Positions 16,731 through 52,886 of a stretch of DNA of 64,000 nucleotides are shown here, in pieces (position 1 is the stretch's first letter; each line of letters opens with the position of its first letter). The position numbers were made by a program, and so were the translations under genes. The DNA is from Mycobacteriales bacterium. GTDB lineage: Bacteria; Actinomycetota; Actinomycetes; Mycobacteriales; CADCTP01. The stretch covers positions 1 to 64,000 of the forward strand of contig DASYKU010000059.1 of assembly GCA_035995165.1 (NCBI GenBank). Direction: 5' to 3'. Below the pieces are notes generated by a model. It saw nothing but the letters and a program-made list of their open reading frames with translations, searched no databases and was not told the DNA's origin.

Positions 16731-17774
16731 CTACACCGCCCGCAGCAACGTCGCGTACAGCGTCAGACCTGGGCCGAAAGCGAGCGCGACCAGATACCGC
16801 CCCGGAGCGACTACGCCGGCCGCCCGCATCCGCTCCAGCACCAGGAGCACGGTGGCGGAGGAGCAGTTGCCGTGATCGCGGAGCACCCCGTACGAGTGCT
16901 CCAGCGCACCGTCCGTGAGCTCCAGCCGGCGCTGCACGACCTCGAGGATCCGCCGCCCGCCCGGGTGCACCGCCCACCCGTCCACGTCGGCCGCGGCGAG
17001 CCCGTGCGCGCCGAGCAGGTCGTCGACGACGCCCCGGACGTGCTTGGCCAGCACCGCCGGCACCCGCGGCGAGAGCCCCATCCGGAAGCCGAGATCGGTC
17101 ACGTCCCAGGTCATGTACTCGGCCGTGCTCACGTCGGTCTGCGCGACCACGTCGACCACCTCGAACCCCGGCCGGGCCGAGGGCTCCAGCACCACCGCGG
17201 CCGCCGCGTCCGCGAACAGCGCGTGCGCCACGACCTGGTCCACGTCCGTGGTCGGCGGCTGGATGTGCAGGCTGGTCAGCTCCAGGCAGAGCAGCACCGA
17301 CGGGCGGTCCCGGGCCGCGGTGAAGTCGGCGACCGTGCCGAGCCCGGGCAGCGCGGCGTAGCAGCCCATGTGCCCGACGAACAGCCGCCGGACCCGGTCG
17401 GACATGCCGAGGTCGCGGGCCAGCCGGATGTCGACGCCGGGGGTCACGTACCCGGTGCAGGAGGCGACCGCGAACAGCCCCACGTCGGCGGCGGCCAGCC
17501 CGGCGTCGGCCAGCGCGGTGGCGACCGCGTCCTTGCCCAGCGGCAGCGCCTCGGCCAGATAGCGCTCCATCCGGGCCGCGGTGCCCCAGCGGGAGACGTC
17601 CTCGTGCACGGGGTTGGCCACGGTGTGCCGGGTCCGGACGCCGGAGCGGGTGAACAGCTGCTCGGCCAGCGGCACGTCCCGGAAGTGCTCGGCGAAGAAC
17701 CCGTCCCAGACCGACTGCTGCGAGTACGCGGCGGGCAGCGCGTGCCCCATCCCGACGATGCGCGCCGTGCTCAC
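16731..17774 (-). CDS. Type III polyketide synthase
   Basis: A 347-residue chalcone/stilbene-synthase-fold enzyme that would extend an acyl-CoA starter with malonyl-CoA and cyclise the product. The catalytic triad is visible: Cys106 in VASCTGYVTPGVDI, His270 in AVHPGGRRI and Asn303 in DHGNCSSATV. The GTG start overlaps the stop of the acyl-CoA dehydrogenase-like gene by 4 bases. It is the last gene of a three-gene coupled operon with a methyltransferase and a flavoprotein. This is the composition of phenolic-lipid (alkylresorcinol or alkylquinone) gene sets. Product and starter unit cannot be predicted from sequence. Confidence 0.92.
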   Translation of the reverse strand: MSTARIVGMGHALPAAYSQQSVWDGFFAEHFRDVPLAEQLFTRSGVRTRHTVANPVHEDVSRWGTAARMERYLAEALPLGKDAVATALADAGLAAADVGLFAVASCTGYVTPGVDIRLARDLGMSDRVRRLFVGHMGCYAALPGLGTVADFTAARDRPSVLLCLELTSLHIQPPTTDVDQVVAHALFADAAAAVVLEPSARPGFEVVDVVAQTDVSTAEYMTWDVTDLGFRMGLSPRVPAVLAKHVRGVVDDLLGAHGLAAADVDGWAVHPGGRRILEVVQRRLELTDGALEHSYGVLRDHGNCSSATVLLVLERMRAAGVVAPGRYLVALAFGPGLTLYATLLRAV

Positions 17775-18961
17775 CAACGCGACACCCCGGTCGCCTCCGG
17801 GTCGAGGCCGAGCGCGGCGGCGCCGAGCCAGTCCGCGCACACGTCCGAGGTGGCCGGCTGCAACGAGCCGCAGCGGGCGTCCCGGTAGATCCGCTCCAGC
17901 GGGGAGCCGCGCCGGGTCGCCGACGTGCCGGCCGCCTCCAGCATCGAGGCCGCGACCTCCATCGCGGTCTCGCCGGCCAGCAGCTTGGCCCGCCAGACCC
18001 AGCGGTTGGTCTCCGGATCGCCCGGCGCGGCGTCGACCCGCCGGGCCGCCTCCAGCACGGTCAGCCGGGCCGCCTCGACCCGGGTCTCGGCCCGGCCGAC
18101 CCTGGCCCGGACCGCCGGCAGGTGGGTCAGGTTGCGCTTCTGCAGGTGCTCGACCGCGGCGGTCACCGCGGACTCGGCCACGCCCACGTACACGGCCGCG
18201 TACGAGGCGACGAGCCACTGCGGCATCACCTGGGCCAGCAGCAGGGTCAGCCCCTCGATCCCGCCGAGCAGCGCGTCCGCGCCGATCTCGACGTCCAGGT
18301 GCAGGTCGTCGCTGCCGGTGGCGCGCATGCCCATCGAGTCCCAGGTCCGCTCGACGGTCAGCCCGTCGCCGGCCGGGACCAGGAAGTGCGACACCTGCGC
18401 CGGGTCCGAACCGGCGCGCTTGGCCGCGACGAGGTAGAGATCGGCGTGCCCGGCCCCGGACACGAACGTCTTCGACCCGGTGATCCGGAACCCCTTCTCC
18501 ACCGGCTCGTACGCGGTGGTGAGCTTCGACAGCCGGCTGCCGGCGCCGCGCTCGCTCATCGCCACCGCGAACAGCGCCCCGGCGGCCGCCCGGCGCAGCG
18601 CCTCGTCCCGCATCGCGAAGTACGACTCCGGCACGCCCAGCGCCCGGGCCACGTCGTCCGGGGTCCCGGCCAGCGCGCCGGTGACCGAGGCGTGCATGTT
18701 GTAGACCAGCGCGGTCGCCCCGGCCCCGGCGCCGAGCGCCATCGCGATCCGGGCGTAGTCGGTGAAGCCGGCCCCGGGACCGCCGAGCCGGGTGGGAACC
18801 ATCAGCCCGAGCAGGCCGGCCGCGCGCAGGTCGTCGAAGTCGGCGGCCGGGAACGTGCCGGCGGCGTCGTGGGCCGCGGCCCGCTCGGCCAGCGCCGGGA
18901 CCAGGCCCCGGGCGGCGGTCAGGGCCGCGCCGGGGTCGGTCAGTGCGGCGGGAACGGTCAC
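17771..18961 (-). CDS. Acyl-CoA dehydrogenase family protein
   Basis: A 396-residue flavoprotein of the acyl-CoA dehydrogenase fold. The N-terminal helical domain (FPAADFDDLRAAGLLGLMVP), the middle beta domain (VAMSERGAGSRLSKL, GFRITGSKTFVSGAGHADLYLV) and the C-terminal helical bundle are all present. The usual catalytic glutamate region is not obvious to me. It could therefore dehydrogenate a starter acyl-CoA or be a flavin-dependent hydroxylase of the polyketide. GTG at 18961 follows GGAGGG and overlaps the methyltransferase stop (GTGA). It is coupled to the polyketide synthase gene downstream. Confidence 0.85.
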   Translation of the reverse strand: MTVPAALTDPGAALTAARGLVPALAERAAAHDAAGTFPAADFDDLRAAGLLGLMVPTRLGGPGAGFTDYARIAMALGAGAGATALVYNMHASVTGALAGTPDDVARALGVPESYFAMRDEALRRAAAGALFAVAMSERGAGSRLSKLTTAYEPVEKGFRITGSKTFVSGAGHADLYLVAAKRAGSDPAQVSHFLVPAGDGLTVERTWDSMGMRATGSDDLHLDVEIGADALLGGIEGLTLLLAQVMPQWLVASYAAVYVGVAESAVTAAVEHLQKRNLTHLPAVRARVGRAETRVEAARLTVLEAARRVDAAPGDPETNRWVWRAKLLAGETAMEVAASMLEAAGTSATRRGSPLERIYRDARCGSLQPATSDVCADWLGAAALGLDPEATGVSRW

Positions 18962-19674
18962 GCGCCCTCCTTGATGCCGTGGCCCTGGAAGAGCACGGCG
19001 GTGGTCCGGACGGGCCGCATCCGCGGCTCCGGGTCGCGGCGGGCCAGCCACCGCAGGGTGCCCAGGATCGGCGGCCGCATGCCGGTCAGCGTCAGCGCGA
19101 CACCGTGCCGGGCCGCCTCGGCGACGAGCTCGGCCCGGTCGACGAACAGGGCCGGGTCGTGGATGCCGGGCGGCGCGCCGCCGGGCAACCGCTCGGCGAT
19201 GTCGACCGCGATCAGCTTGGCCAGCCGGGTGGCCGCGATCGTGTCCAGCACCAGCGTCCCGCCCGGGCGCAGCACCCGGCAGGCCTCGGCCACCGCGGCC
19301 CGCAGGTCCGGGACGTGCTCGAGGATCTCGCCGGCCGAGACCGCGTCGGCGGCCCCGTCCGCGATCGGCAGCCGCTGGACGTCCCCCCGGACGGCGTGGA
19401 CCCCGTGCTCGGCGGCCAGCCGGAGCGAGGTGTCGACCAGGTCGACGCCGACGTGCCGGTAGCCGAGCCGGGCCGCGTGCGGCGCCAGCAGGCCGGCTCC
19501 GCAGCCCATGTCGACCAGCACGGCGCCGGGCCGCGGCGCCGGCGGGATCAGCTCGGCCCGGGCGGCGGCGATCCAGCGCAGCATCGCGAACTTCCCGTAC
19601 GGCTGCCACCACTGGTCGGCCAGGCCTTCGTACTGCCGGACGTCGTTGCGCGGCAGCGCGAGCGTCGGGGACAT
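18958..19674 (-). CDS. Class I SAM-dependent methyltransferase
   Basis: A 238-residue methyltransferase of the UbiG/UbiE type. Motif I is VLVDMGCGAGLLAPHAA near residue 52, followed by VDLVD, a DVQRLP segment, EILEHV and the VLRPGGTLVL strand-turn. It is the first gene of the operon and overlaps the next gene by 4 bases. It probably methylates the polyketide or a quinol derived from it. O- versus C-methylation cannot be told from sequence. Confidence 0.85.
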   Translation of the reverse strand: MSPTLALPRNDVRQYEGLADQWWQPYGKFAMLRWIAAARAELIPPAPRPGAVLVDMGCGAGLLAPHAARLGYRHVGVDLVDTSLRLAAEHGVHAVRGDVQRLPIADGAADAVSAGEILEHVPDLRAAVAEACRVLRPGGTLVLDTIAATRLAKLIAVDIAERLPGGAPPGIHDPALFVDRAELVAEAARHGVALTLTGMRPPILGTLRWLARRDPEPRMRPVRTTAVLFQGHGIKEGA

Positions 19675-22447: not shown

Positions 22448-24130
22448 ATGACTGCTCCCGACACCGGCCGCGTCGCTCGACCGGCGATCCTGACGGTCGA
22501 CGACGACCCCAGCGTGTCCCGCGCGGTCGCCCGTGACCTGCGCCGCAAGTACGGCGAGGGCTACCGCATCGTCCGGGCCGAGTCCGGCCCGCAGGCGCTG
22601 GAGGCGGTGCGGGAGATCAAGCTGCGCGGCGAGCAGGTGGCCGTGCTGCTGGCGGACTACCGGATGCCACAGATGAGCGGCATCGAGTTCCTGGAGCAGG
22701 CGATGGACCTGTTCCCGCTGGCCCGCCGGGTCCTGCTGACGGCGTACGCGGACACCGACGCGGCGATCCAGGCGATCAACGTGGTCGACCTCGACCACTA
22801 CCTGCTCAAGCCCTGGGACCCGCCGGAGGAGAAGCTGTATCCGGTGGTCGACGGGCTGCTGGCGTCCTGGGCCGCGGTGGACCGGCGGCCGGCCCGGGAG
22901 ATCCGGGTCATCGGCCACCGCTGGTCGGCCCGCTCGTTCGAGGTCCGCGACTTCCTGGCCCGCAACTCCGTCCCGTTCCGGTGGTATCTGGCCGACGACG
23001 CCGAGGCGGTCCGGCTGCTGTCCGCGGCCGCCGTCGGCGACGACCGGCTGCCGGTCGTGATCACCGCCGAGGGCGCCGCGATGATCGAGCCGTCCGACGC
23101 CGAGCTCGCCGCCCACGTCGGCCTGGCCACGAACCCCTCCACCGACTTCTACGACCTGGTCGTGGTCGGCGGCGGACCGGCCGGTCTCGGCGCCGCGGTG
23201 TACGGCGGCTCCGAGGGGCTGCGGACGGTGCTGGTCGAGCGGCGCGCCACCGGCGGCCAGGCCGGCACCAGCTCGCGGATCGAGAACTACCTCGGATTCC
23301 CCGACGGCGTGTCCGGCGAGCAGCTGACCGAGCGGGCCCGCCGGCAGGCGCTGAAGTTCGAGGTCGAGATGCTCACCACCCGCGACGTGGTCGGGCTGGA
23401 GCAGCGCGGCAACGCCCGGGTCGTCCGGTTCGAAGACGGCTCGGAGCTGGCCGCGCACACGGTGATCCTGGCGACCGGGGTGTCGTACCGGATGCTGGAG
23501 GCGCCGGGACTGTCGGAGCTGGCCGGCCGGGGCGTCTTCTACGGCGCCGCCACCACCGAGGGCCCGTCCTGCCGCAGCCAGGACGTCTACATCGTCGGCG
23601 GCGCCAACTCCGCCGGCCAGGCCGCCATGTACTTCTCCCGGTACGCGGACAAGGTCACCCTGCTCGTCCGCGGCGGCAGCCTGGACTCCTCGATGTCGCG
23701 CTACCTCATCGACCAGATCGACAAGGTCCCCAACATCGAGGTCCGCACCTGCACCGAGGTCGTCGGCGGCAGCGGCGATGAGCATCTGGAGACGCTGGAG
23801 CTGCGCAACAACGCGAGCGGCAGCACGGAAACAGTCCCGGCGTCCTGGTTGTTCGTCTTCATAGGAGCGGCACCGCGCACCGACTGGCTCGACGGCTGCC
23901 TCGACCGGGACCCCCGGGGCTTCGTGCTCACGGGTCCGGATCTGGTCGTGGAGGGCCGGCGACCGGCCGGCTGGGCGCTGGACCGCGACCCGTACCACCT
24001 GGAGGCCAGCGTGCCCGGCGTGTTCGTGGCCGGCGACGTACGGTCGGACTCGGTGAAGCGGGTCGCGTCCGCGGTCGGCGAGGGCGCGATGGCCGTCACG
24101 CTGGTGCACCGGTACCTGGAGAAGCTGTGA
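22448..24130 (+). CDS. Response regulator fused to a thioredoxin-reductase-like flavoprotein
   Basis: A 560-residue three-part protein. Residues 1-135 are a receiver domain: acidic residues DDD at 18-20, phospho-acceptor Asp70 in LADYRMP, LLTAY, and Lys in LLKPWD. Residues about 140-220 resemble a glutaredoxin/thioredoxin fold without its cysteines (RVIGHRWSARSFEVRDF ... LPVVI). Residues 230-560 are an FAD/NAD(P)H module with GGGPAGLGAA near 240, ATGVSYRML, YIVGGANSAGQAA and AGDVRSD. The redox-active CxxC of true thioredoxin reductase is absent; only one cysteine (about Cys375, in SCRSQD) is nearby. It is coupled by a 4-base overlap to the histidine kinase downstream. It probably links phosphorylation to a flavin redox reaction. 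Confidence 0.9.
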   Translation: MTAPDTGRVARPAILTVDDDPSVSRAVARDLRRKYGEGYRIVRAESGPQALEAVREIKLRGEQVAVLLADYRMPQMSGIEFLEQAMDLFPLARRVLLTAYADTDAAIQAINVVDLDHYLLKPWDPPEEKLYPVVDGLLASWAAVDRRPAREIRVIGHRWSARSFEVRDFLARNSVPFRWYLADDAEAVRLLSAAAVGDDRLPVVITAEGAAMIEPSDAELAAHVGLATNPSTDFYDLVVVGGGPAGLGAAVYGGSEGLRTVLVERRATGGQAGTSSRIENYLGFPDGVSGEQLTERARRQALKFEVEMLTTRDVVGLEQRGNARVVRFEDGSELAAHTVILATGVSYRMLEAPGLSELAGRGVFYGAATTEGPSCRSQDVYIVGGANSAGQAAMYFSRYADKVTLLVRGGSLDSSMSRYLIDQIDKVPNIEVRTCTEVVGGSGDEHLETLELRNNASGSTETVPASWLFVFIGAAPRTDWLDGCLDRDPRGFVLTGPDLVVEGRRPAGWALDRDPYHLEASVPGVFVAGDVRSDSVKRVASAVGEGAMAVTLVHRYLEKL

Positions 24131-25596
24131 CTGAGACGCGCGAGACGCTGGGCCGCGACGAGCTGCGGCGGCTGTTCCTGTTCGAGTCGCTGAGCGATGA
24201 GCAGCTGGACTGGATCTCCGAGCACGGCGAGGTCAGGACGGTGCCGGCCGGCGACGTGGTGGTCGCCGAAGGCGACCCGCCCACCTGCTTCTTCGTGCTG
24301 CTGTCGGGCACGCTCGTGCTGTCCCGGCTGGCCGGGGGCGAGCGGGTGCAGATCAACCGGACCGACCACGTCGGGTCCTACTTCGGCGCCACCCAGTCCT
24401 ACCTGAGCACCGACCGGGCCTCCAAGACGTACGGGGCGACGGTCGAGGCCGCGACCGAGATGCGGATCTTCCAGCTGCCGGCGGACGAGTGGGGTACCCA
24501 GGTCCGCGAGTGGTTCCCGATGGCGATCCACCTGCTCGACGGGATCTTCCTCGGGATGCAGAACAGCCAGCGGCTGGTCAACGAGCGGGAGCGGCTGCTC
24601 GCGCTCGGGTCGCTGTCCGCCGGCCTGACCCACGAGCTGAACAACCCGGCCGCGGCCGCCGTGCGGGCCACCGCCGCGCTGCGCGAGCGGGTCGCCGGGA
24701 TGCGGCACAAGCTGGCCATGCTGGCCGGCGGCGCGATCGCGCCGGCCAACATGCCGGCGCTGGTGAAGCTGCAGGAGGAGGCGGTCGAGCGGGTCGCGAA
24801 GGCGCCGAAGCTCGGCCCGATCGAGGCCAGCGACGCCGAGGACGAGCTCGGTGACTGGCTGGAGGACCACGGCGTCAGCGGCGGCTGGGACCTGGCCCCG
24901 ACGCTGGTCAACGCGGGGCTGGACGTCGAGTGGTTGGCCGAGGCGGTGCAGAAGTGCCCGGGCACGGCCACCGAGGGCGCGATCCGCTGGCTGGCGTACA
25001 CGGTCGAGACCGAGATGCTGATGAACGAGATCGAGGACGCCACCACCCGGGTGTCCACGCTCGTCGGCGCGGCCAAGCAGTACTCGCAGATGGACCGGGC
25101 CCCGTTCCAGGTCGTCGACGTGCACGAGCTGCTCGACTCGACGCTGGTGATGCTGGCCCGCAAGATCGGCGACAAGGTCACGGTGGTCAAGGACTACGAC
25201 CGGACGCTGCCGCCGCTGCCGGCGTACGCGGCCGAGCTCAACCAGGTCTGGACCAACCTCATCGACAACGCGGTGCAGGCGATGGCGGGGGAGGGCACGC
25301 TGACCGTGCGGACCTCCCGCGAGGACGACTGCATCGTCGTCGCCATCGGGGACACCGGTCCGGGCGTGCCGCCGGAGATCGCCGGGCGGATCTTCGAGCC
25401 GTTCTTCACCACCAAGCCGGTCGGCGAGGGTACCGGCCTGGGCCTGGACATCTCCTGGCGGATCGTGGTCAAGAAGCACCACGGCGACATCCAGCTGGAC
25501 TCCGAGCCGGGCGCGACCTGGTTCCTGGTCCGCCTCCCGCTCGCCTCCGACGCCGACATGCCGGACCTGTCGGCCGCCGAGGGCATCGACGACTAG
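24127..25596 (+). CDS. Cyclic-nucleotide-domain sensor histidine kinase
   Basis: A 489-residue soluble histidine kinase. Residues 1-135 form a cNMP-binding-like beta roll (VPAGDVVVAEGDPPTCFFVL). The dimerisation/phospho-acceptor region has His169 in GLTHELNNPAAAA. The ATPase domain has the N box near Asn381 (TNLIDNAVQAM), DTGPG, PFFTTKPVGEGTGLGL. No membrane helix is seen. GTG at 24127 overlaps the response-regulator gene (GTGA), so the two are a cognate pair. A ligand cannot be assigned. Confidence 0.92.
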   Translation: MTETRETLGRDELRRLFLFESLSDEQLDWISEHGEVRTVPAGDVVVAEGDPPTCFFVLLSGTLVLSRLAGGERVQINRTDHVGSYFGATQSYLSTDRASKTYGATVEAATEMRIFQLPADEWGTQVREWFPMAIHLLDGIFLGMQNSQRLVNERERLLALGSLSAGLTHELNNPAAAAVRATAALRERVAGMRHKLAMLAGGAIAPANMPALVKLQEEAVERVAKAPKLGPIEASDAEDELGDWLEDHGVSGGWDLAPTLVNAGLDVEWLAEAVQKCPGTATEGAIRWLAYTVETEMLMNEIEDATTRVSTLVGAAKQYSQMDRAPFQVVDVHELLDSTLVMLARKIGDKVTVVKDYDRTLPPLPAYAAELNQVWTNLIDNAVQAMAGEGTLTVRTSREDDCIVVAIGDTGPGVPPEIAGRIFEPFFTTKPVGEGTGLGLDISWRIVVKKHHGDIQLDSEPGATWFLVRLPLASDADMPDLSAAEGIDD

Positions 25597-26927: not shown

Positions 26928-28562
26928 GTGCGTGTCCTCGGCATCAACGCGATCTACCACGACCCGGCCGCCGCCCTCGTCGTCGACGGCGAGGTCGTCG
27001 CCGCGGCCGAGGAGGAGCGGTTCAGCCGCCGCAAGCACGGCAAGCGGCCGGTGCCGTTCGCGGCCTGGGAGCTGCCGGAGCTGGCCGCGGCCTGGTGCCT
27101 GGAACGGGCCGGGCTGACCGCCGCGGACGTGGACGTCGTGACGTACTCGTTCGACCCGGCGCTGGTCCGCCCGCCGGCCGAGGTCGGGGTCGAGGACCCC
27201 TGGGACTCGCTGCGGACCACGTACGCGCAGCGGGCGCCGCAGTTCCTGGCCACCGCGCTTCCCGGGCTGGACCCGGACGCCGTGCGCTACGTCCCGCACC
27301 ACATCGCCCACGCCGCCTCGGCCGGGTTGGCCGCGCCGCAGCGCGAGTCCGCGGTGCTCGTGCTCGACGGCCGCGGCGAGGCCGTCTCCCACCTCGCCGG
27401 GCGGTACGCGGCCGACGGCACGCTGACCGTCCTGGCCTCCCAGTCGCTGCCGCACTCGCTCGGCCTGCTCTACGAGGACGTCACCGAGCACCTGGGCTTC
27501 CTGCGCTCCTCCGACGAGTACAAGGTGATGGCGCTGGCCTCGTACGGGACGCCGCGGCACCTGCCGCTGCTGCGCGAGGCGATCCGGGCCACCGGCGACG
27601 GCGGCTTCCGGACCGACCCGGTCGCCTGGGACGCGCTGGCCAAGCGCCGGGCCGCGGCCGACGAGTTCACCGCCGAGCACGCCGACCTGGCCGCGAGCGT
27701 GCAGGTCCGCCTGGAGGAGGTGCTGCTGGAGCTGGCGACCTGGCTGCACCGGCAGACCGGGGAGAAGGCGCTGACGATGGCCGGCGGGGTCGCGCTGAAC
27801 TGCGTGGCCAACTCGCGGCTGGCGGCCGAGGGGCCGTACGAGACGGTCTGGGTGCAGCCGGCGGCCGGGGACGCCGGCACCGCGCTCGGCGGCGCGCTGC
27901 ACGTGGCCGCGGCCGCGGGGGAGCGGGCCGAGCCGATGGCCGGCGCCGACCTCGGCCGGGGCTGGACCGACGCCGAGCTCGCGGCCTGGCTGGACACCGC
28001 CCGCTGGCCGTACACGCGACCGGCCGACCTGGCCGGTGAGGTCGCCGACGTGCTGGCCGCGGACGGGGTGGTGGCCTGGTTCGCCGGTCGCGCCGAATAC
28101 GGCCCGCGCGCGCTCGGGCACCGCTCCCTGCTGGCCAACCCCGGCCGGCGGGAGACCCTGACGAAGCTCAACGACGTCAAGGGCCGGGAGCAGTTCCGGC
28201 CGGTGGCGCCGATGATCCGGCTGGACCGGGCGGCGGACGTGTTCGAGGGGCCGCTGCCCTCGCCGTACATGCTGTTCGTGCACCGGGTCCGGGACGAGTG
28301 GCGGGACCGGATCCCGGCCGTCGTGCACGTCGACGGCACGGCCCGGGCCCAGACGGTCGACCCGGAGCGGGAGCCCGGGGTGGCGGCGCTGCTCACCGCG
28401 TTCGAGCGGCGGACCGGGCTGCCCTGCCTGGTGAACACGTCGCTGAACACGGCCGGGCGGCCGATCGTGGACGACCCGCGGGACGCGCTGGAGCTGTTCG
28501 GGTCGGCCCCGGTGGACGTGCTCGTCCTCGGGCCGTACCTGGTCCGGCGGCCGCTCTCGTGA
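26928..28562 (+). CDS. Carbamoyltransferase, NodU/CmcH family
   Basis: A 544-residue O-carbamoyltransferase that would move a carbamoyl group from carbamoyl phosphate, via carbamoyl-adenylate, to a sugar hydroxyl. The Kae1-like domain opens with VLGINAIYHDPAAALV and AAEEERFSRRKHGKR, and HHIAHAASAG supplies metal-binding histidines. DEYKVMALASYG and the C-terminal YrdC-like/NodU segment (GRAEYGPRALGHRSLLANP, FRPVAPM, NTSLNTAGRPIVD) are present. GTG at 26928 follows GGAGG. It is the first gene of a nine-gene overlapping run, so the sugar acceptor is probably made by that operon. Confidence 0.93.
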   Translation: MRVLGINAIYHDPAAALVVDGEVVAAAEEERFSRRKHGKRPVPFAAWELPELAAAWCLERAGLTAADVDVVTYSFDPALVRPPAEVGVEDPWDSLRTTYAQRAPQFLATALPGLDPDAVRYVPHHIAHAASAGLAAPQRESAVLVLDGRGEAVSHLAGRYAADGTLTVLASQSLPHSLGLLYEDVTEHLGFLRSSDEYKVMALASYGTPRHLPLLREAIRATGDGGFRTDPVAWDALAKRRAAADEFTAEHADLAASVQVRLEEVLLELATWLHRQTGEKALTMAGGVALNCVANSRLAAEGPYETVWVQPAAGDAGTALGGALHVAAAAGERAEPMAGADLGRGWTDAELAAWLDTARWPYTRPADLAGEVADVLAADGVVAWFAGRAEYGPRALGHRSLLANPGRRETLTKLNDVKGREQFRPVAPMIRLDRAADVFEGPLPSPYMLFVHRVRDEWRDRIPAVVHVDGTARAQTVDPEREPGVAALLTAFERRTGLPCLVNTSLNTAGRPIVDDPRDALELFGSAPVDVLVLGPYLVRRPLS

Positions 28563-30049
28563 CAGCTTTCTCGGTGGTCGTCCCGACCGTCGGGCGCCCG
28601 TCGCTGCGGGTCCTGCTCGACGCGCTCGCGGCCGGGACCGGGCCGGTTCCCGCGGCGGTGCTGGTGGTGGACGACCGCCGGGTGACCGACCGCGCCCTGG
28701 ACCTGCCGGCCTGGGCGCCGATCCGGGTCGTGCCGGGTACGGCCCGCGGGCCGGCCGCGGCCCGCAACCTCGGCTGGCGGGCGGCGACGACGCCCTGGGT
28801 CGCCTTCCTCGACGACGACGTACGGCCGGGGCCGTCCTGGACGGCGGACCTGGTCCGGGACCTGGCCGGGCTGCCCGCGGCGGTGGCCGGGTCGCAGGGC
28901 CGGCTGCGGGTGCCGCTGCCGGCCGGCCGCCGCCCGACCGACTGGGAGCGGGTGACCGCGGGGCTGGCCGGCGCGGCCTGGGCGACGGCGGACATGGCCT
29001 TCCGGCGCCCGGCGCTGGTCCGGGTCGGCGGCTTCGACGAGCGGTTCCCGCGGGCGTACCGGGAGGACGCCGACCTGGCCCTGCGGCTGCTGGACGCCGG
29101 CTTCACGCTGGTCCGGGGTGCGCGGCAGGTCGAGCACCCGGTCCGGCCGGCCTCGCGCTGGGTGTCCGTACGGACCCAGGCCGGCAACGCAGACGACGCG
29201 CTGCTGCGCCGGCTGCACGGGCGGACCTGGCGGGAGCGGGCCGGTGCCGGCCGCGGGCGGCTGCCCCGGCACGTCATGGTCACCTCGGCCGCGCTCGTCT
29301 CGTTGGTCGGTGTCGTGACACGAAACAGGAAGCTGGCGGTCGGGGCGGGGCTGGCGTGGCTGGCCGGGACGGCGGAGTTCGCCCGGGCCCGGATCGCGCC
29401 CGGGCCCCGGACGCCGGCCGAGGTGGCCACCATGCTGGCGACCTCGGCGGTGATCCCGCCGGTCGCGGTGGCGCACCGGGTCCGGGGCGAGCTCACCGCC
29501 CGGGGGGAGCGGCCGCTGCGCGCGCCGCGGTACGCGGTCCTCTTCGACCGGGACGGCACGCTCGTGCACGACGTCCCGTACAACGGCGACCCGGCGCTGG
29601 TGGAGCCGGTGCCGGGGGCGCTGGCGGCGCTGGACCGGCTGCGGGCCGGCGGGGTGCCGCTCGGGGTGGTGACCAACCAGTCCGGCATCGGCCGCGGGTA
29701 CGTCACCCGCGACCAGGTCGACCTCGTCAACGCGCGGGTCGAGGAGCTGCTCGGGCCGTTCGACACCTGGCAGCTGTGCCCGCACCGGCCGGACGCCGCC
29801 TGCGGGTGCCGCAAGCCGCAGCCGGGGCTGGTGCTGGCCGCGGCGGCCGCGCTCGGCGTGCCGCCGGAGCGGTGCGTGGTGATCGGGGACATCGGCGGGG
29901 ACCTCGGCGCGGCCCGGGCCGCCGGCGCGCGGTCGGTGCTGGTGCCGACCGCGGTGACCCGGCCCGAGGAGGTGGCGGCCGCGCCGGTGGTCGCGGCCGA
30001 TCTCGCGTCCGCGGTGGAGGTCGCCCTGGCGATGGTGGGGCGGTCGTGA
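28559..30049 (+). CDS. Fusion: family 2 glycosyltransferase + GmhB-like HAD phosphatase
   Basis: A 496-residue fusion. Residues 1-215 form a GT-A family 2 domain (VVVPTVGRPSL, PAAARNLGWRAAT, metal-binding FLDDDV with Asp85-87, GGFDERFPRAYREDADLALR). Residues 230-315 are a hydrophobic linker. From about residue 325 comes a HAD-IIIA phosphatase with FDRDGTLV (Asp330/Asp332), VVTNQSGIGRGY, the zinc-type CPHRPDAACGCRKP loop and GDIGGDL. This is the GmhB/HisB pattern for removing the 7-phosphate of heptose 1,7-bisphosphate. GTG at 28559 overlaps the carbamoyltransferase stop. The frame runs continuously through both halves, so the fusion is real as sequenced. Confidence 0.9.
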   Translation: MTAFSVVVPTVGRPSLRVLLDALAAGTGPVPAAVLVVDDRRVTDRALDLPAWAPIRVVPGTARGPAAARNLGWRAATTPWVAFLDDDVRPGPSWTADLVRDLAGLPAAVAGSQGRLRVPLPAGRRPTDWERVTAGLAGAAWATADMAFRRPALVRVGGFDERFPRAYREDADLALRLLDAGFTLVRGARQVEHPVRPASRWVSVRTQAGNADDALLRRLHGRTWRERAGAGRGRLPRHVMVTSAALVSLVGVVTRNRKLAVGAGLAWLAGTAEFARARIAPGPRTPAEVATMLATSAVIPPVAVAHRVRGELTARGERPLRAPRYAVLFDRDGTLVHDVPYNGDPALVEPVPGALAALDRLRAGGVPLGVVTNQSGIGRGYVTRDQVDLVNARVEELLGPFDTWQLCPHRPDAACGCRKPQPGLVLAAAAALGVPPERCVVIGDIGGDLGAARAAGARSVLVPTAVTRPEEVAAAPVVAADLASAVEVALAMVGRS

Positions 30050-31134
30050 ACGCTCCGTCCGCCTCGGCCGGTCCGCAGCGGGTGCTGGTGGCGCGGTTGG
30101 ACAATGAGGGCGACGTGCTGCTGGCCGGGCCGGCGGTGCGGGCCGTCGCCGCCGCGGCCGAGGTCGTGCTGCTGACCGGACCGCGCGGCCGGCAGGCGGC
30201 GGCGCTGCTGCCCGGGGTGACCGAGACGATCGAATGGCGGGCGCCGTGGATCGACCCGGCGCCCGAGCCGGTCGAGCGGTCCGATGTGGACGGTCTGGTC
30301 GCGACGCTGCGGTTCCTGCGGCTGGATGCGGCGGTCGTGCTCACCTCGTACCACCAGTCGGCGTTGCCGCTGGCGTTGCTGCTGCGGCTGGCCGGGGTCC
30401 GGCATGTGACCGCGATCAGCGCGGACTACCCGGGCTCGCTGCTGGACGTCCGGCACCGCGTCGAGGAGGACCTGCCGGAGGCCGAGCGGGGACTGTCGAC
30501 CGCGGCGGCGGCCGGGTTCGGGCTGCCGCCCGGGGACGACGGGCGGCTGCGGGTGCGCCGGCCGCTGCCGGCGGTGGACCACCTCACCGGACCCGGGCCG
30601 TACGTGGTGCTGCACCCGGGCGCGTCGGTGCCGGCCCGGGCCTGGTCGCCGGACCGGTGCGCCGGCGCGGTGCGGGCGTTGGCCGCGGCCGGGCATCGCG
30701 TCCTGGTCACCGGCGGGCCGGCCGAGACCGCCCTGACGGCCGCCGTCGCTGGGCCGGCCGCGGCGGCTGGGCCGGGGCCGGGTGCCGGCGCGCGGGCGGG
30801 TGCCGGGGCGGGCGTGCTGGATCTGGGTGGGCGGACGAGTTTCGCGGAGCTGGCGGCGGTGCTGGCCGGGGCAGCAGTGGTGGTGGTCGGCAACACCGGC
30901 CCGGCGCACCTCGCCGCCGCGGTCGGCACCCCGGTCGTCTCGCTGTTCGCCCCGGTCGTCCCGGCCGCCCGCTGGGCCCCGTACGGCGTGCCGAGCGTCC
31001 TGCTCGGCGACCAGGACGCGCCCTGCCGGGCCACCCGGGCGACGGTCTGCCCGATCCCCGGGCACCCCTGCCTGGACACGGTGACCGCGGACGACGTCGT
31101 CGTCGCGGTCGAGAAGCTGGCCGGTGCGGCATGA
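30046..31134 (+). CDS. Glycosyltransferase family 9 (heptosyltransferase-like), first copy
   Basis: A 362-residue GT-B protein of the ADP-heptose:LPS heptosyltransferase type (GT9). Visible are VLVARLDNEGDVLLAGPAVRA at the start, VVLHPGASVPARAWSP before the C-terminal domain and VVGNTGPAHLAAAVGTPVVSLFAP near the end. An Ala/Gly/Pro-rich run (about residues 235-262) interrupts the C-terminal domain and looks like an expansion. GTG at 30046 overlaps the fusion gene. In a Gram-positive cell the acceptor cannot be LPS, so a wall- or lipid-linked glycan is likely. Confidence 0.9.
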   Translation: MNAPSASAGPQRVLVARLDNEGDVLLAGPAVRAVAAAAEVVLLTGPRGRQAAALLPGVTETIEWRAPWIDPAPEPVERSDVDGLVATLRFLRLDAAVVLTSYHQSALPLALLLRLAGVRHVTAISADYPGSLLDVRHRVEEDLPEAERGLSTAAAAGFGLPPGDDGRLRVRRPLPAVDHLTGPGPYVVLHPGASVPARAWSPDRCAGAVRALAAAGHRVLVTGGPAETALTAAVAGPAAAAGPGPGAGARAGAGAGVLDLGGRTSFAELAAVLAGAAVVVVGNTGPAHLAAAVGTPVVSLFAPVVPAARWAPYGVPSVLLGDQDAPCRATRATVCPIPGHPCLDTVTADDVVVAVEKLAGAA

Positions 31135-32072
31135 GGGTCCTCAGCTGGCACGTGCACGGGGCCTGGAGCACCGCGTTCGTCCGGGGCGCGCACGACCACC
31201 TCGTCCCGGTCGTCCCGGACCGCGGCCCGGACGGCCGCGGCCGGGCGCGGACGTACGACTGGCCGGCGGCGGTCCGGGAGGTGACCCCGGCGCAGCTGGC
31301 CGCCGAGCCGGTCGACGTGGTCGTGCTGCAGCGCCCGCGCGACCTGGAGCTGGCCGACACCTGGCTCGGCGGCCGGCGGGTCGGCCGCGACGTCCCGGCC
31401 GTGTACGTCGAGCACGACTGCCCGCGCGGGGACGTGCCGCGCACCCGGCACCCGCTGGCCGACCGGGATGACATCCCGATCGTGCACGTGACCCACTTCA
31501 ACGCGCTGATGTGGGACTCGGGCCGGGCGCCCACGGTGGTGATCGAGCACGGCGTACCGGACCCGGGTCCACTGTGGACCGGCGAGCTGGCCCGGGCCGC
31601 GGTGGTGGTGAACGACCCGGTCCGGCGCGGCCGGCTGGTCGGGGCCGATCTGCTGCCGGTCTTCGCCGGGATCGCCCCGCTCGACCTGTTCGGCATGAAC
31701 ACGGACCAGGTGGAGGGTGTCGTCGCTCACGATCTGCCCCAGCTCGAGATGCACGATGCGCTCGCACGGCGCAGGGTGTATCTGCACCCGTTCCGATGGA
31801 CATCGCTCGGCCTGTCGCTGGTCGAGGCCATGCACCTCGGGATGCCGGTGGTGGCGTTGGCCACCACCGAGGCGGTCGAGGCGGTGCCGCCGGGTGCCGG
31901 GGTCTGTTCGAACCGGATGGACGTGCTGAGCGATGGAGTACGCCGGCTGCTCGCCGACCGTGACGCGGCCGCTGCGGCGGGCCGCGTGGCCCGCCGCGCT
32001 GCCCTGGACCGGTACGGGCTGTCCCGCTTCCTGCACGACTGGGACCGACTTCTCAAGGAGGTGACCCGATGA
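31131..32072 (+). CDS. GT-B fold glycosyltransferase
   Basis: A 313-residue glycosyltransferase without a closely recognisable family. It has a short N-terminal Rossmann domain (VLSWHVHGAWSTAFVRGAHD) and a C-terminal donor domain with HPFRWTSLGLSLVEAMHLGM, PVVALATTE, resembling the E-x7-E region of retaining GT4 enzymes. ATG at 31131 overlaps the previous stop, and the next start overlaps its stop (both ATGA). Substrates unknown. Confidence 0.82.
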   Translation: MRVLSWHVHGAWSTAFVRGAHDHLVPVVPDRGPDGRGRARTYDWPAAVREVTPAQLAAEPVDVVVLQRPRDLELADTWLGGRRVGRDVPAVYVEHDCPRGDVPRTRHPLADRDDIPIVHVTHFNALMWDSGRAPTVVIEHGVPDPGPLWTGELARAAVVVNDPVRRGRLVGADLLPVFAGIAPLDLFGMNTDQVEGVVAHDLPQLEMHDALARRRVYLHPFRWTSLGLSLVEAMHLGMPVVALATTEAVEAVPPGAGVCSNRMDVLSDGVRRLLADRDAAAAAGRVARRAALDRYGLSRFLHDWDRLLKEVTR

Positions 32073-33292
32073 GGATCGCCATGGTGTCCGAGCACGCCAG
32101 CCCGCTTGCCGTGGTCGGGGGGGTCGACGCGGGTGGTCAGAACGTGCACGTCGAGGCCCTGTCCCGCGCGCTGGCGCGGGCCGGGCACGAGGTGACCGTC
32201 TACACGCGACGCGATTCGGCCGACCTGCCGGCCCAGATCCGGACGGCGGACGGGGTGCTCGTCACGCACCTGGACGCCGGGCCGGCGACGCCGCTGCCCA
32301 AGGACGACCTGCTGCCGCTGATCGGCAAGTTCGGCTCGGCCCTGGCGGCGCAGCTGGCCGCGGCCCCGCCGGACCTCGTGCACGCCCACTTCTGGATGTC
32401 CGGGCTGGCCGCGCTGGCCGCCACCCGGGAGCTGGACGTGCCGGTGGTGCAGACCTTCCACGCGCTGGGGGTGACCAAGCAGCGCTTCCAGGGCCAGCAG
32501 GACACCAGCCCGCCGACCCGGATCCGGTTCGAGCGGGCACTGGCGCACGACGCCGCCCGGATCATCGCGCTGTCCTCCGACGAGGTCGGCGAGCTGCTGG
32601 CGATGGGCGCGACCCGCGACCGGATCGCGGTGGTGCCGTCCGGGGTGGACGTCGAACAGTTCCGGCCGGACGGGCCGGTCGCCGAACGGGGCGAGCGGCC
32701 GCGGGTGCTGTGTGTCGGCCGGCTGGTGCCGCGCAAGGGTTTCGACACCGTCATCCGGGCGCTGGCCGCGGTCCCGGAGGCAGAGCTGATCATCGCCGGT
32801 GGCCCGGTCGCGGACCGGATGACCACCGATCCGGAGGCGGCCCGGCTGATGCGGCTGGCCGAGCGGTTCGGCGTGGCCGACCGGGTCCGGCTGGCCGGCG
32901 CGGTGTCCCGGGCGGACATGCCCGTGCTGATGCGCTCGGCCGACGTCGTCGTCTGCACGCCCTGGTACGAGCCGTTCGGGATCGTGCCGCTGGAGGCGAT
33001 GGCCTGCGGGGTGCCGGTGATCGCCGGCGCGACCGGCGGGTTCCTGGACACGGTCGTGGACGGCGCGACCGGCACGCTGGTGCCGTCCCGCCGGCCGGAC
33101 CGGCTGGCCGCCGCCATGCGGCAACTGCTGGCCGAGCCGTTCTGGCGGGAGGCGTACGGGACCGCGGGCGTGGACCGGGCCCGCTCCCGCTACTCCTGGG
33201 ACCGCATCGCCGCCGGCACCCTGGCCGTGTACGAGGACGTGCTCGGCCGGGTCGAGCCCGCCGCCGACGCGCTCGAGACCACGCCCGCGTGA
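32069..33292 (+). CDS. Glycosyltransferase family 4
   Basis: A 407-residue GT4 enzyme. The acceptor domain opens MRIAMVSEHASPLAVVGGVDAG and GQNVHVEALSRAL. The donor domain has VPSGVDVEQFRP, VLCVGRLVPRKGFDTVI and the E-x7-E motif in YEPFGIVPLEAMACGVPVI. Overall it resembles MshA/SucP-type enzymes that use nucleotide-activated hexoses. It overlaps both neighbours by 4 bases. Confidence 0.9.
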   Translation: MRIAMVSEHASPLAVVGGVDAGGQNVHVEALSRALARAGHEVTVYTRRDSADLPAQIRTADGVLVTHLDAGPATPLPKDDLLPLIGKFGSALAAQLAAAPPDLVHAHFWMSGLAALAATRELDVPVVQTFHALGVTKQRFQGQQDTSPPTRIRFERALAHDAARIIALSSDEVGELLAMGATRDRIAVVPSGVDVEQFRPDGPVAERGERPRVLCVGRLVPRKGFDTVIRALAAVPEAELIIAGGPVADRMTTDPEAARLMRLAERFGVADRVRLAGAVSRADMPVLMRSADVVVCTPWYEPFGIVPLEAMACGVPVIAGATGGFLDTVVDGATGTLVPSRRPDRLAAAMRQLLAEPFWREAYGTAGVDRARSRYSWDRIAAGTLAVYEDVLGRVEPAADALETTPA

Positions 33293-34833
33293 GGGGCCCG
33301 CTGGTCGTCGTCGGCGACGTGCTGCTGGACCGGGACCTGTCCGGACGGGCCGACCGGCTCAGCCCGGACGCCCCGGTGCCGGTGGTCAGCGCGCTGACCG
33401 AGGCCGAGCGGCCGGGCGGGGCCGGGCTGGCGGCGCTGCTGGCCGCCCGGGACGCGGGCGAGGTCGTGCTCGTCACCGCGCTCGGCGACGACCCGGCCGG
33501 GGAGCGGGTCGCCGCGCTGCTGGCCGCCGCGGGCGTGACCGTGATCGCCGGCCGGTTGCCGGGGCGGACGCCGGTGAAGGAGCGGATCCGGGTCGCCGGG
33601 CAGTCGCTGCTGCGGCTGGACCGGGAGGAGGCCGCACCCGGGCCGCCGGTGGTCACCGCGGCGATGCGGGCAGCCGTCCACGGTGCCGGGGCGCTGCTGG
33701 TCTCCGACTACGGCCGGGGGCTGAGCGCGGACGCCAGGCTGCGCTCGGCGCTGGCCGCGGCGACCGCGTCGGTGCCGGTGGTCTGGGACCCGCACCCGCG
33801 CGGGGCCGAGCCGGTGCCCGGAGTCCGGGTGGCGACGCCGAACCTGGCCGAAGCGCTGCGGTTCACCGGCCTGTCCGCGGACGGCGGGACGGTCGCCGCG
33901 GCGGCGCGGGCGGCCCGGCTGCTGGCCCGGCGGTGGCGGGCGGCCGGGGTCGCGGTGACGCTCGGCCCGCGCGGCGCGCTGCTGGCCGGACCGGACGACG
34001 TACCGCTGGCCGTGCCGGTGTCGCAGGCAGCGGGCGGGGACCCGTGCGGAGCGGGGGACCGGTTCGCCGCGACGGTGACGGTCCGGCTCGCGGCCGGGGC
34101 GCTGCCGAGCGAGGCCGTCACCGCCGGCGTGGCGGCCGCGTCGGCCTACGTCGCCGCCGGTGGGCCGGCCTCGCTGGCCCCTGTCCTGTCGGCGCCGTCC
34201 GGCAGTCCGTCGGCGGCGCCGGGCGGATCGGTGGCGTCGGCTGCCGGCTCGGCACTGTCCATGGTGGATCCGGGACTGGCTGTTCCGGACCGGCCCGGCC
34301 CTGTCGGGGTGGGCCGGTCCGGGACGGCCGCGGTGAGCCGGCCGGCGGCCGAGGTGGTCCGCCGGACCCGGGCCGCCGGCGGCGTCGTGGTCGCCACCGG
34401 CGGCTGTTTCGACCTTCTGCACGCCGGGCACGTCGCGACCCTGGAGGCGGCCCGGCGGCTCGGGGACTGCCTGGTCGTCTGCCTCAACTCCGACGAGTCG
34501 GTCCGCCGGCTCAAAGGTGCGGGCCGGCCGCTGGTGCCGGCCCGGGACCGGGTCCGGGTGCTGGAGGCGCTCGGCGCCGTCGACGCGGTGACCGTGTTCG
34601 CCGAGGACACCCCGCTGGCGGTGCTCGACGCGATCCGGCCCGACGTGTGGGTGAAGGGCGGCGACTACGCCGCACCGGCGCTGCCGGAGACCGAGCTGCT
34701 GGCCGGCTGGGACGGGCAGGTCGTGGTCGTGCCGTACCTGGCCGGCCGCTCGACCACCCGCCTGGTGGAGACGGCCGGCGGCGAGCTGAGTGGGAACGAC
34801 GAGATGACTACTGCTGGGAGGCAGGATGGCTGA
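33289..34833 (+). CDS. hldE: Bifunctional sugar kinase / nucleotidyltransferase, HldE (RfaE) type
   Basis: A 514-residue two-domain enzyme. Residues 1-305 are a PfkB-family kinase (VVGDVLLDRDLSGRADRLSPDAPVPVV; catalytic GAGD with Asp257). A 55-residue Gly/Ala/Pro/Ser linker follows. Residues 355-500 are a cytidylyltransferase-fold domain (ATGGCFDLLHAGHVATLEAA with HAGH at 378-381, VKGGDYA, STTRLVE). In the heptose pathway this enzyme phosphorylates heptose 7-phosphate at C1 and later adenylates heptose 1-phosphate. The GmhB-like phosphatase that acts between these steps is encoded two kilobases upstream. GTG at 33289 overlaps the GT4 gene. Confidence 0.9.
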   Translation: MRGPLVVVGDVLLDRDLSGRADRLSPDAPVPVVSALTEAERPGGAGLAALLAARDAGEVVLVTALGDDPAGERVAALLAAAGVTVIAGRLPGRTPVKERIRVAGQSLLRLDREEAAPGPPVVTAAMRAAVHGAGALLVSDYGRGLSADARLRSALAAATASVPVVWDPHPRGAEPVPGVRVATPNLAEALRFTGLSADGGTVAAAARAARLLARRWRAAGVAVTLGPRGALLAGPDDVPLAVPVSQAAGGDPCGAGDRFAATVTVRLAAGALPSEAVTAGVAAASAYVAAGGPASLAPVLSAPSGSPSAAPGGSVASAAGSALSMVDPGLAVPDRPGPVGVGRSGTAAVSRPAAEVVRRTRAAGGVVVATGGCFDLLHAGHVATLEAARRLGDCLVVCLNSDESVRRLKGAGRPLVPARDRVRVLEALGAVDAVTVFAEDTPLAVLDAIRPDVWVKGGDYAAPALPETELLAGWDGQVVVVPYLAGRSTTRLVETAGGELSGNDEMTTAGRQDG

Positions 34834-35533
34834 GCGTCCACTGGGGACGGTGCTGGTGACCGGAGGAGCGTCCGGGCTCGGCGCGGCGACCGCGCTGGCG
34901 GTGGCACAGGCGGGCGGGACCGCGCTGGTGCTGGACCGGGTGCCGCCACCGGCGGAGGTGAAGGACGCGATCGCCGACTTCGAGGTGGTCGACCTGGCCG
35001 ACGCCCGGGCGGCCGAGGCCGCGGTCCGGGCGATCGCGGAGCGGGCCGGCGGTCTGGATGCCGTCTTCACCCCGGCCGGTACGGACAAGTGCGGCATGCT
35101 GGCCGACGTCGACGGTGCCGACTGGGACCGGGTGATCCTGGTCAACCTGATCGGCACCGCCGCGGTGGTGCGGGCCGCGCTGCCGTACCTGACCGCGTCG
35201 CACGGCCGGGTCGTCACCTGCGCCTCGACGCTGGGGTTCCGGGCGCTGTCGGACGCCACCGCATACTGTGCGTCGAAGTTCGGGGTGGTCGGGTTCACCC
35301 GGGCGCTGGCGGCCGAGCTGCAGGGCACGGTCGGCGTGACGATGCTGGTGCCGGGCGGGATGCAGACCGCGTTCTTCGACGACCGGGACGAGAAGTACAA
35401 GCCGCCGGCGGACGCGAAGCTCAACGACCCGGCGAACGTGGCCGCGACCGTGCTGTTCGCGCTGCGCCAGCCCGCCGGCTGCGAGGTGCGCGAGCTGGTG
35501 GTGACGCCGTCGGTGGAGAGCTCGTGGCCGTAG
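34826..35533 (+). CDS. Short-chain dehydrogenase/reductase
   Basis: A 235-residue classical SDR with cofactor loop TGGASGLG (residues 13-20), catalytic Ser in CASTLGF and the Tyr-x3-Lys pair in AYCASK. It is not of the extended type, so it is not a simple HldD epimerase. It may oxidise or reduce a sugar intermediate. ATG at 34826 overlaps the hldE stop by 8 bases and is preceded by GGGAGG. Cotranscription with the glycan genes is very likely. Confidence 0.9.
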   Translation: MAERPLGTVLVTGGASGLGAATALAVAQAGGTALVLDRVPPPAEVKDAIADFEVVDLADARAAEAAVRAIAERAGGLDAVFTPAGTDKCGMLADVDGADWDRVILVNLIGTAAVVRAALPYLTASHGRVVTCASTLGFRALSDATAYCASKFGVVGFTRALAAELQGTVGVTMLVPGGMQTAFFDDRDEKYKPPADAKLNDPANVAATVLFALRQPAGCEVRELVVTPSVESSWP

Positions 35534-36411
35534 CCGACCTGCTGGTGCTGCGGGCGCTCGGGCTGGGCGATCTGCTGACCGCGGTGCCGGCGCTGCGGGG
35601 ACTGCGGCGGGCCCGGCCCGGGCACCGCCTGGTGCTGGCCGGGCCGGCCGCGCTGGAACCCTTGGCCCGGCTGTCCGGCACGGTCGACGCGGTGCTGCCG
35701 CGGTCCGGATTGGACGGTCCACTCCGGACGGACGGGCCGGCCCTCGCGGTGAACCTGCACGGCCGCGGGCCGCAGTCGACCCGGCTGCTGCGGGCGACCG
35801 GGCCGGCCGAGCTCTGGTCGTACGGCCTCGGTCCGATGTGGACGGACGGGGAGCACGAGGTCGACCGCTGGTGCCGGCTGCTGTCCTGGTACGGCGTCCC
35901 GGCCGATCCGGGCGACCTCCGGCTGGACCGGCCGGACGAGCCGAGCCCGGCGCCGGGGGCGGTGGTGGTCCACCCGGGCGCGGCGTCGGGGTCGCGGCGC
36001 TGGCCGGTCGACCGGTTCGCCGCGGTGGCCCGGGAACTGGCCGCGGACGGGCACCGGGTCGTGGTCACCGCCGGACCGTCCGAACGCGACCTGGCCGCCG
36101 CGGTCGGGGCCGAGTGGGTGCCGACCGGGCTGACCGGGCTGGCCGCGCTGGTGGCCGAGGCCGCGCTGGTGGTCTGCGGGGACACCGGCGTCGCCCACCT
36201 CGCCACCGCGTACGGGACGCCGTCGGTGCTGCTGTTCGGCCCGACCCCGCCGGCCGAGTGGGGCCCGCGCTCCGGGCCGCACACCGTGCTCTGGTCCGGC
36301 GGCCGGGGCGACCCGCACGGCGCCGAGCCCGACCCCGGCCTGCTGCGGATCACCGTGGCCGAGGTGCTGGCCGCGGCCCGGAGGGGGATCCGTGCCCCGG
36401 CTGCGCCGTAG
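35524..36411 (+). CDS. Glycosyltransferase family 9 (heptosyltransferase-like), second copy
   Basis: A 295-residue GT9 protein with VLRALGLGDLLTAVPALRGLR at the start, VVVHPGAASGSRRWPVDRF in the middle and VVCGDTGVAHLATAYGTPSVLLFGP near the end. It is somewhat shorter than typical WaaC/WaaF. GTG at 35524 (GGAGAG upstream) overlaps the SDR gene by 10 bases. Two GT9 genes in one operon suggest sequential heptosyl-type transfers. Confidence 0.9.
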   Translation: MAVADLLVLRALGLGDLLTAVPALRGLRRARPGHRLVLAGPAALEPLARLSGTVDAVLPRSGLDGPLRTDGPALAVNLHGRGPQSTRLLRATGPAELWSYGLGPMWTDGEHEVDRWCRLLSWYGVPADPGDLRLDRPDEPSPAPGAVVVHPGAASGSRRWPVDRFAAVARELAADGHRVVVTAGPSERDLAAAVGAEWVPTGLTGLAALVAEAALVVCGDTGVAHLATAYGTPSVLLFGPTPPAEWGPRSGPHTVLWSGGRGDPHGAEPDPGLLRITVAEVLAAARRGIRAPAAP

Positions 36412-37399
36412 CGACCCGAACCGGCCCGGCTTCACCCGCCGCCGGGCCGGCACCGGCTGGACGTACCGGGACGTGGACGGGAGCCGGATCACCGACCGGG
36501 GCGCGGTCGAGCGGATCCGGGCGCTGGTGATCCCGCCGGCCTGGCAGGACGTCTGGATCAGCCCGTATCCGAACGGGCACATCCAGGCGGTCGGGACCGA
36601 CGCCGCCGGCCGCCGGCAGTACCGCTACCACGACGCCTGGCGGGAGCACCGGGACCGGGTCAAGCACCTGCGGGTGCTGCAGGTGGGGGAGAAGCTGCCG
36701 GCGCTGCGCCGGCGCTGGGCCCGGGACCTGCGCCGCGAGGACCTCGACCGCAACCGGGTGCTGGCCGCCGCGGCGACGCTGCTGGACCTCGGCCTGTTCC
36801 GGGTCGGCGGCGAGGAGTACGCCGAGGAGCACAGCACGTACGGGCTGGCCACCCTGCGCCGGGAGCACGTCACCGTCAGCGGCGCCCGCCTCGTCTTCGA
36901 CTACACCGCCAAGGCCGGCATCCGCCGCCAGGAGGAGGTCCGCAACGCCCGCGTGGCCGCGGTCGTCACCGCGCTGCACGACCGGGCCGACGACCCCAAC
37001 CCGGAGCTGTTCGCCTACCGGCACGGGGACTCCTGGAACGACGTGAAGAGCGCGACGGTCAACGAGTACCTGCGCGAGGTGTCGGGGCTGGACATGTCGG
37101 CCAAGGACTTCCGCACCTGGCACGCGACCGTGCTCATGGCCACCGTCCTCGGCCGGACGGCCGTCCCGGCCAGCCGGCGCGGCCGGGACAAGGCCGTGCG
37201 GGCCGGGTACGTCGCGGTCGCCGAGGCGCTCGGCAACACGCCGGCCGTGAGCAAGGCGTCCTATGTGGACCCGCGGGTGGTCGACCTCTACCACGGCGGC
37301 ACCACGATCGCGGTCCCGCCGACGAGGCGCTCCGACGACGCGATGCGCTCGGCCCTGGAGAAGGAGGTCCTGGACCTCCTGCACGTGGAGCCCGACTAG
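36392..37399 (+). CDS. DNA topoisomerase IB
   Basis: A 335-residue poxvirus/bacterial type IB topoisomerase that relaxes supercoils through a 3'-phosphotyrosyl intermediate. It has the N-terminal domain (GFTRRRAGTGWTYRDVDG, WQDVWISPYPNGHIQ), LGLFRVGGEEYAEEHSTYGL with the catalytic-pocket arginine, and the nucleophile at about Tyr291 in SKASYVDPRVV. GTG at 36392 (GGAGGGG upstream) lies 20 bases inside the GT9 gene, an odd coupling to a glycan operon. Its stop shares a CTAG with the convergent CYTH-CHAD gene. Confidence 0.92.
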   Translation: MPRLRRSDPNRPGFTRRRAGTGWTYRDVDGSRITDRGAVERIRALVIPPAWQDVWISPYPNGHIQAVGTDAAGRRQYRYHDAWREHRDRVKHLRVLQVGEKLPALRRRWARDLRREDLDRNRVLAAAATLLDLGLFRVGGEEYAEEHSTYGLATLRREHVTVSGARLVFDYTAKAGIRRQEEVRNARVAAVVTALHDRADDPNPELFAYRHGDSWNDVKSATVNEYLREVSGLDMSAKDFRTWHATVLMATVLGRTAVPASRRGRDKAVRAGYVAVAEALGNTPAVSKASYVDPRVVDLYHGGTTIAVPPTRRSDDAMRSALEKEVLDLLHVEPD

Positions 37400-52808: not shown

Positions 52809-52814
52809 GCCTGC

Positions 52815-52876: not shown

Positions 52877-52886
52877 CGGCCGGCGT

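Follow-up and report, generated by a model that had tools for sequence, protein, structure and literature searches.

How would a Gram-positive actinobacterium run a heptose pathway from an operon that lacks both gmhA and hldD, and what would that pathway make? The question is raised by a 64,000-nucleotide stretch of contig DASYKU010000059.1 from a Mycobacteriales bacterium (the whole stretch is called the window here), where codon-usage gene finding together with start sites places eight overlapping genes on the plus strand at positions 26928 to 36411. An earlier note, made from the sequence alone, had described eight such genes for a carbamoyltransferase, two GT9 heptosyltransferase-like proteins, three other glycosyltransferase domains, GmhB-like and HldE-like enzymes, and an SDR; all were found where it had placed them, with family matches far above chance, and the three other glycosyltransferase domains are GT2, GT4a, and GT4b. 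Mechanically called open reading frames start too early in several of these genes; 4-nucleotide ATGA or GTGA overlaps can be read at most junctions and are likely the true starts. Elsewhere in the window, a gene for a response-regulator/pyridine-nucleotide oxidoreductase fusion is followed, with a 4-nucleotide overlap, by one for a cNMP-binding histidine kinase (22448 to 25596), and genes for a type III polyketide synthase and a methyltransferase lie on the minus strand at 16731 to 19674.

The first gene of the operon (26928 to 28562) encodes a NodU/TobZ-type O-carbamoyltransferase of 544 amino acids (CarbT) that matches the Pfam Carbam_trans N and C families (PF02543/PF16861, E values of 1e-51 and 6e-64); its phmmer relatives among solved carbamoyltransferases are 7xb6, 9s2t, TobZ, and GdmN, and its HHIAHAAS motif, the metal/active-site region, is kept in relatives. 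The second gene (28559 to 30049), which begins in a GTGA overlap with the CarbT stop, carries a GT2 domain (PF00535) and then a GmhB-like HAD-IIIA domain in a single frame, the phosphatase half matching the D,D-heptose-1,7-bisphosphate phosphatases 4pnh and 2gmw and containing both the DRDGT motif and the CxH...CxC residues. It is followed by genes for the heptosyltransferase-like GT9a (30046 to 31134), for GT4a (31131 to 32072), a GT4-type glycosyltransferase recognized only by a C-terminal GT1/GT4 match, and for the MshA-like GT4b (32069 to 33292; PF00534/PF13439), whose best NCBIfam model is MshA at 257 bits, under the MshA cut-off. A second heptosyltransferase-like protein, GT9b, is encoded at 35524 to 36411. 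Both GT9 proteins match PF01075 (E values of 6e-21 and 6e-23). In GT9a the Asp at the catalytic position (D11, within GD) and the NTGPAH motif are at least 95% conserved among 72 sequences, with NTG standing family-wide where WaaC has DTG, and in GT9b GD and DTG are conserved among 84 sequences; we take the roles of the GD residues (catalysis) and of DTG (binding of ADP-heptose) to be those that they have in WaaC. Relatives of GT9b found with phmmer include 2gt1/6dfe (WaaC), 3tov, and 1psw (WaaF), but both GT9 proteins are remote from WaaC and WaaF and match them only partially, so that a non-heptose donor is possible.

HldE (33289 to 34833) combines PfkB and cytidylyltransferase domains (NCBIfam HldE, E value of 5e-82, and HldE/rfaE domains I and II) and is a putative D,D-heptose-7-phosphate kinase and heptose-1-phosphate nucleotidyltransferase, with structural relatives in PDB entries 4e84, a heptose-7-phosphate kinase, and 5x9q. 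The GAGD motif of the kinase and the HxGH motif of the nucleotidyltransferase are present and invariant. In its YLAGRSTT motif position 5 is Arg and position 1 is Tyr, as against Phe or Leu in the (F/L)XXGRSTT motif defined previously (PMC11573728); among the 99 operon-type HldE proteins examined Arg5 occurs in 74, and position 1 is mostly Tyr rather than Phe or Leu. Since Arg5 of this STTR motif marks nucleotidyltransferases that also use CTP or UTP (PMC11461863, PMC11573728), CDP- or UDP-heptose may be made as well. A classical SDR oxidoreductase gene (34826 to 35533; PF00106, with TGGxSGLG and YxxxK motifs) separates hldE from the GT9b gene. A ninth gene, for a topoisomerase IB (36392 to 37399, plus strand; PF01028), overlaps the GT9b gene by 20 nucleotides and probably lies outside the heptose pathway; topoisomerase IB adjoins the operon in Micromonosporaceae too, several of which encode ChaB a few genes upstream.

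This gene set resembles the cwg ("cell wall glycan") operon of Streptomyces coelicolor, a 12-gene operon spanning SCO6179-6190 (Hong, Paget and Buttner 2002, as described in later papers), and the annotations of SCO6180-6188 agree with a cwg-type gene order. The published sigmaE promoter of cwg lies 147 bp upstream of the 12-gene operon (PMC6767563). We searched for the promoter sequence in 394 genomes and found it, with 2 mismatches, in genome G186, where the site ends 148 bp ahead of an operon of 12 genes (locus L160) in the order NAD-epimerase-like, CarbT, GT2, GmhB, GT9a, GT4a, GT4b, GmhA, HldE, GT9b, GT2, GT2. A second site, with 3 mismatches, lies away from the operon in genome G312 and was taken as a chance occurrence. 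The promoter, together with named Streptomyces loci of identical 12-gene order (L152 and L157), suggests that G186 is itself a Streptomyces. Because the promoter stands 148 bp before an operon that is co-linear with that of the window, the latter can be assigned to the cwg type: it has counterparts of cwgB (CarbT), cwgC and cwgD (GT2 and GmhB), cwgE (GT9a), cwgF and cwgG (GT4a and GT4b), cwgI (HldE), and cwgJ (GT9b) in the same order, and its proteins are 53 to 72% identical to those of the promoter-linked copy. It differs from the Streptomyces operon in lacking gmhA (cwgH), cwgA, cwgK, and cwgL, in the fusion of GT2 and GmhB, in the addition of the SDR, which is absent from L160, and in the downstream topoisomerase IB. 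The first gene and the terminal GT2 genes (cwgA, cwgK, and cwgL) are also absent from many other members of the operon family, and in the genome of the window a cwgA match of 61% identity lies on contig C61 and a GT2 match of 41% on contig C48. A scan for the sigmaE-type pattern AAC-N15-18-[CG]GTC gave no site within 400 bp upstream of the window operon, but it missed the Streptomyces copies too and is thus a weak test. By gene content and order, then, the window operon is an actinobacterial cwg-type variant with gene loss rather than a standard cwg operon. The streptomycete relatives suspected by the earlier note do exist, although it had not recognized in them the described cwg operon; the operon itself has been known since 2002, and the window copy departs from it by the clean absence of gmhA.

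Relatives of HldE occur in 27 of the 61 genomes searched within the order, and operon-type HldE (E value of 1e-60 or lower) in 59 of 246 genomes of a class-wide sample, or about a quarter. Fetched neighborhoods and 80 named loci, which include Streptomyces, Micromonospora, Actinoplanes, Nocardioides, Modestobacter, Parafrankia, Actinomadura, Arthrobacter, and Curtobacterium, share the common order CarbT-GT2-GmhB-GT9a-GT4a-GT4b-GmhA-HldE-(SDR)-GT9b. Among the 89 comparable loci, defined as those holding HldE, GT4b, and GT9a, GmhA is present in all 89, GT4a in 87, GmhB in at least 85, GT9b in at least 76, and the SDR in at least 65, the lower counts being lower bounds where contig ends cut some loci. 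The cwg-type operons of Micromonosporaceae, Geodermatophilaceae, Nocardioidaceae, Parafrankia, Microbacteriaceae, and Micrococcaceae thus have their core in common with the window, and those of Micromonosporaceae also the downstream topoisomerase IB, but all six groups keep gmhA inside the operon. Three-domain GmhA-HldE fusions or GmhA-GT4b fusions are also seen (loci L049, L086, L092, L090, L102, and L129; L051 and L073). Candidate loci where gmhA does not adjoin hldE all carry a different, divergent paralogue of HldE. The one exception is L111, in which the two genes are separated by a spurious call on the minus strand. At L089 (12148 to 17503) such a divergent HldE, with 32 to 42% identity in the kinase half, belongs to a second heptose-type set with a GT9, an aldehyde dehydrogenase, and a GT2 beside the cwg-type operon, and similar second sets occur in many Arthrobacter, Curtobacterium, and Microbacteriaceae loci.

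The window operon is therefore the only one without gmhA, against 89 of 89 comparable loci with it. Its GT4b stop and HldE start join by a 4-nucleotide GTGA (33289 to 33292) exactly where gmhA stands in relatives, and tblastn detected no GmhA remnant in the window. The genome, rated 100% complete, has two gmhA genes elsewhere, both on contig C124. One (50495 to 51088) lies in a polysaccharide region between a GmhB-like gene (49875 to 50498) and hddA (51076 to 52086), and this gmhB-gmhA-hddA cluster with its WecG/TagA-type glycosyltransferase gene (49875 to 52892; locus L013) is likely a GDP-heptose branch. The other (92414 to 93082) is an orphan next to a gene for an Rrf2-like regulator. The two proteins are 72% identical over 173 residues, and both retain the zinc ligands H/E/Q/H, whose positions we take to be those of B. 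pseudomallei GmhA. In a phylogenetic tree 90 operon GmhAs form a group that includes neither of them (branch support of 100/99); two outgroup rows were long-branched, and only this separation was used. The tree rejects the orphan as a relocated operon copy, and relocation is also disfavored by a congener without operon-type HldE that carries the orphan too, likewise beside an Rrf2-like regulator (G001, contig C117; L192, 4217 to 4831). From these comparisons, the operon's own gmhA is lost, and GmhA of another type is available in the genome and may serve the operon in trans.

These observations bear on whether the pathway works at all. Loss of gmhA could be a first step of decay, or HldE could act on another sugar phosphate, as might be suggested by the precise absence of gmhA in this copy alone, by the congener without any operon-type HldE, and by a few GT4b residues that are conserved in relatives and changed here. 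We regard a non-functional heptose pathway as unlikely, however: the eight reading frames are uninterrupted and linked through overlaps, the catalytic residues are intact, and two GmhAs with zinc ligands are encoded elsewhere, so that the absence of gmhA from the operon is no proof of a broken pathway. The earlier statement that the operon lacks gmhA is correct for the operon itself, but a search elsewhere in the genome, which it had proposed, recovers gmhA twice and no hldD above cut-off.

That hldD is missing from the window also stands, and its absence is normal for the group, with none of the 61 related genomes, that of the window included, encoding an HldD above the TIGR02197 cut-off of 274.6 (E. 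coli and Caulobacter were among the positive controls). The best score in the window's genome, 123 bits for C124:32615-33595, belongs to a protein for which GalE and LegB/RmlB-type models give better scores, and CwgA, at 75 bits to TIGR02197, falls under several dehydratase and epimerase models; both were rejected as the missing HldD. Since hldD is ordinarily absent in the group, D-glycero-D-manno-heptose is the predicted sugar.

A cwg-type operon whose product is a carbamoylated cell-envelope oligosaccharide or glycolipid containing D-glycero-D-manno-heptose, with GmhA supplied in trans, is in our judgment the likely reading. GmhA would convert sedoheptulose-7-phosphate to heptose-7-phosphate, the HldE kinase domain would form the 1,7-bisphosphate, the GmhB domain would remove the 7-phosphate to leave heptose-1-phosphate, and the HldE nucleotidyltransferase domain would yield ADP-heptose, perhaps also CDP- or UDP-heptose. 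On an acceptor in the cytoplasm or the membrane, GT9a and GT9b would then add heptoses and GT2, GT4a, and GT4b other sugars, and CarbT would carbamoylate the product. The residues required for catalysis are conserved across the operon enzymes examined, which we count in favor of a heptose glycan, and carbamoylation of heptose is already known from the lipopolysaccharide core of Pseudomonas, where WapO acts (PMC8005017). Counting against this reading are the lack of a described product for any cwg operon in the literature searched, the negative promoter scan, the absence from the operon of cwgA and of flippase, polymerase, and lipid-carrier transferase genes, and the remoteness of the GT9 proteins from WaaC and WaaF. 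The acceptor, the export route, the role of the SDR, and the identity of the supplying GmhA are the least certain parts.

The regulation known from Streptomyces points to where the product resides. There cwg is an envelope-stress target induced by vancomycin and sigmaE (PMC6767563), a regulation that favors a product of the envelope over a secreted metabolite, and by analogy we infer a cell-envelope glycan. A secreted, heptose-containing specialized metabolite resembling septacidin or hygromycin B would be in keeping with the use of NDP-heptose in Streptomyces natural products such as septacidin (PMC11461863) and with the TobZ/NovN/GdmN-type carbamoyltransferases that modify antibiotics. It is nonetheless improbable given the conservation of the operon over many actinobacterial families, its five glycosyltransferases, the lack of any scaffold-making, resistance, or export genes seen with it, and the sigmaE-dependent response of the Streptomyces operon to envelope stress. 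The operon also has no flippase, polymerase, or lipid-carrier transferase gene, and the lack of lipid-carrier enzymes would suit transferases that glycosylate a protein, comparable to heptosylation of the Aah autotransporter, as would the use of NDP-heptose in E. coli protein heptosylation (PMC11461863). With several different glycosyltransferases suggestive of an oligosaccharide, and no gene in the operon for an adhesin-like protein or another evident target, we give protein glycosylation little credence. For the envelope glycan, then, a nucleotide-activated heptose with its transfer and a carbamoylated product, as first proposed, remain the best reading: the enzyme set and the carbamoyltransferase gene are present, while the heptose in the product and its decoration are predicted. 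Of the two acceptors initially entertained, an envelope molecule or a secreted metabolite, the former is favored and likewise predicted.

Compared with the ADP-L,D-heptose pathway and heptosyltransferases of Gram-negative lipopolysaccharide (GmhA, HldE, GmhB, HldD, and WaaC/WaaF, with the carbamoyltransferase WapO), the window system has the same predicted NDP-heptose chemistry, GT9 proteins, and a carbamoyltransferase, but its GT9 proteins are distant and it is without HldD and genes for lipid A or Kdo. The GDP-D-alpha-D-heptose pathway (GmhA, HddA, and GmhB), which we take to be that of Rv0113-0115 in Mycobacterium, shares the GmhA step with the window operon and differs in kinase, anomer, and nucleotide; in this genome it has its separate locus in the polysaccharide region of contig C124.

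Searchable literature yielded no described product of any cwg operon, and looking there for a characterized actinobacterial heptose glycan was likewise unproductive; although cwg has been known in Streptomyces since 2002, its product is termed only a putative cell wall glycan in the parts of the literature available to us. The conserved enzyme set predicts a composition for this glycan, D,D-heptose plus carbamoyl, that is directly testable, and the window copy, with gmhA cleanly gone and supply in trans needed, is a natural experiment. We tentatively suggest, as a possibility short of an even chance, that the sigmaE- and vancomycin-induced product of cwg is a carbamoylated D,D-heptose envelope oligosaccharide of Gram-positive bacteria built from ADP-, CDP-, or UDP-heptose, whose committed precursor step is here carried out by the GmhA of the GDP-heptose pathway. 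If this is true, one entry enzyme, GmhA, would be common to two heptose glycans.
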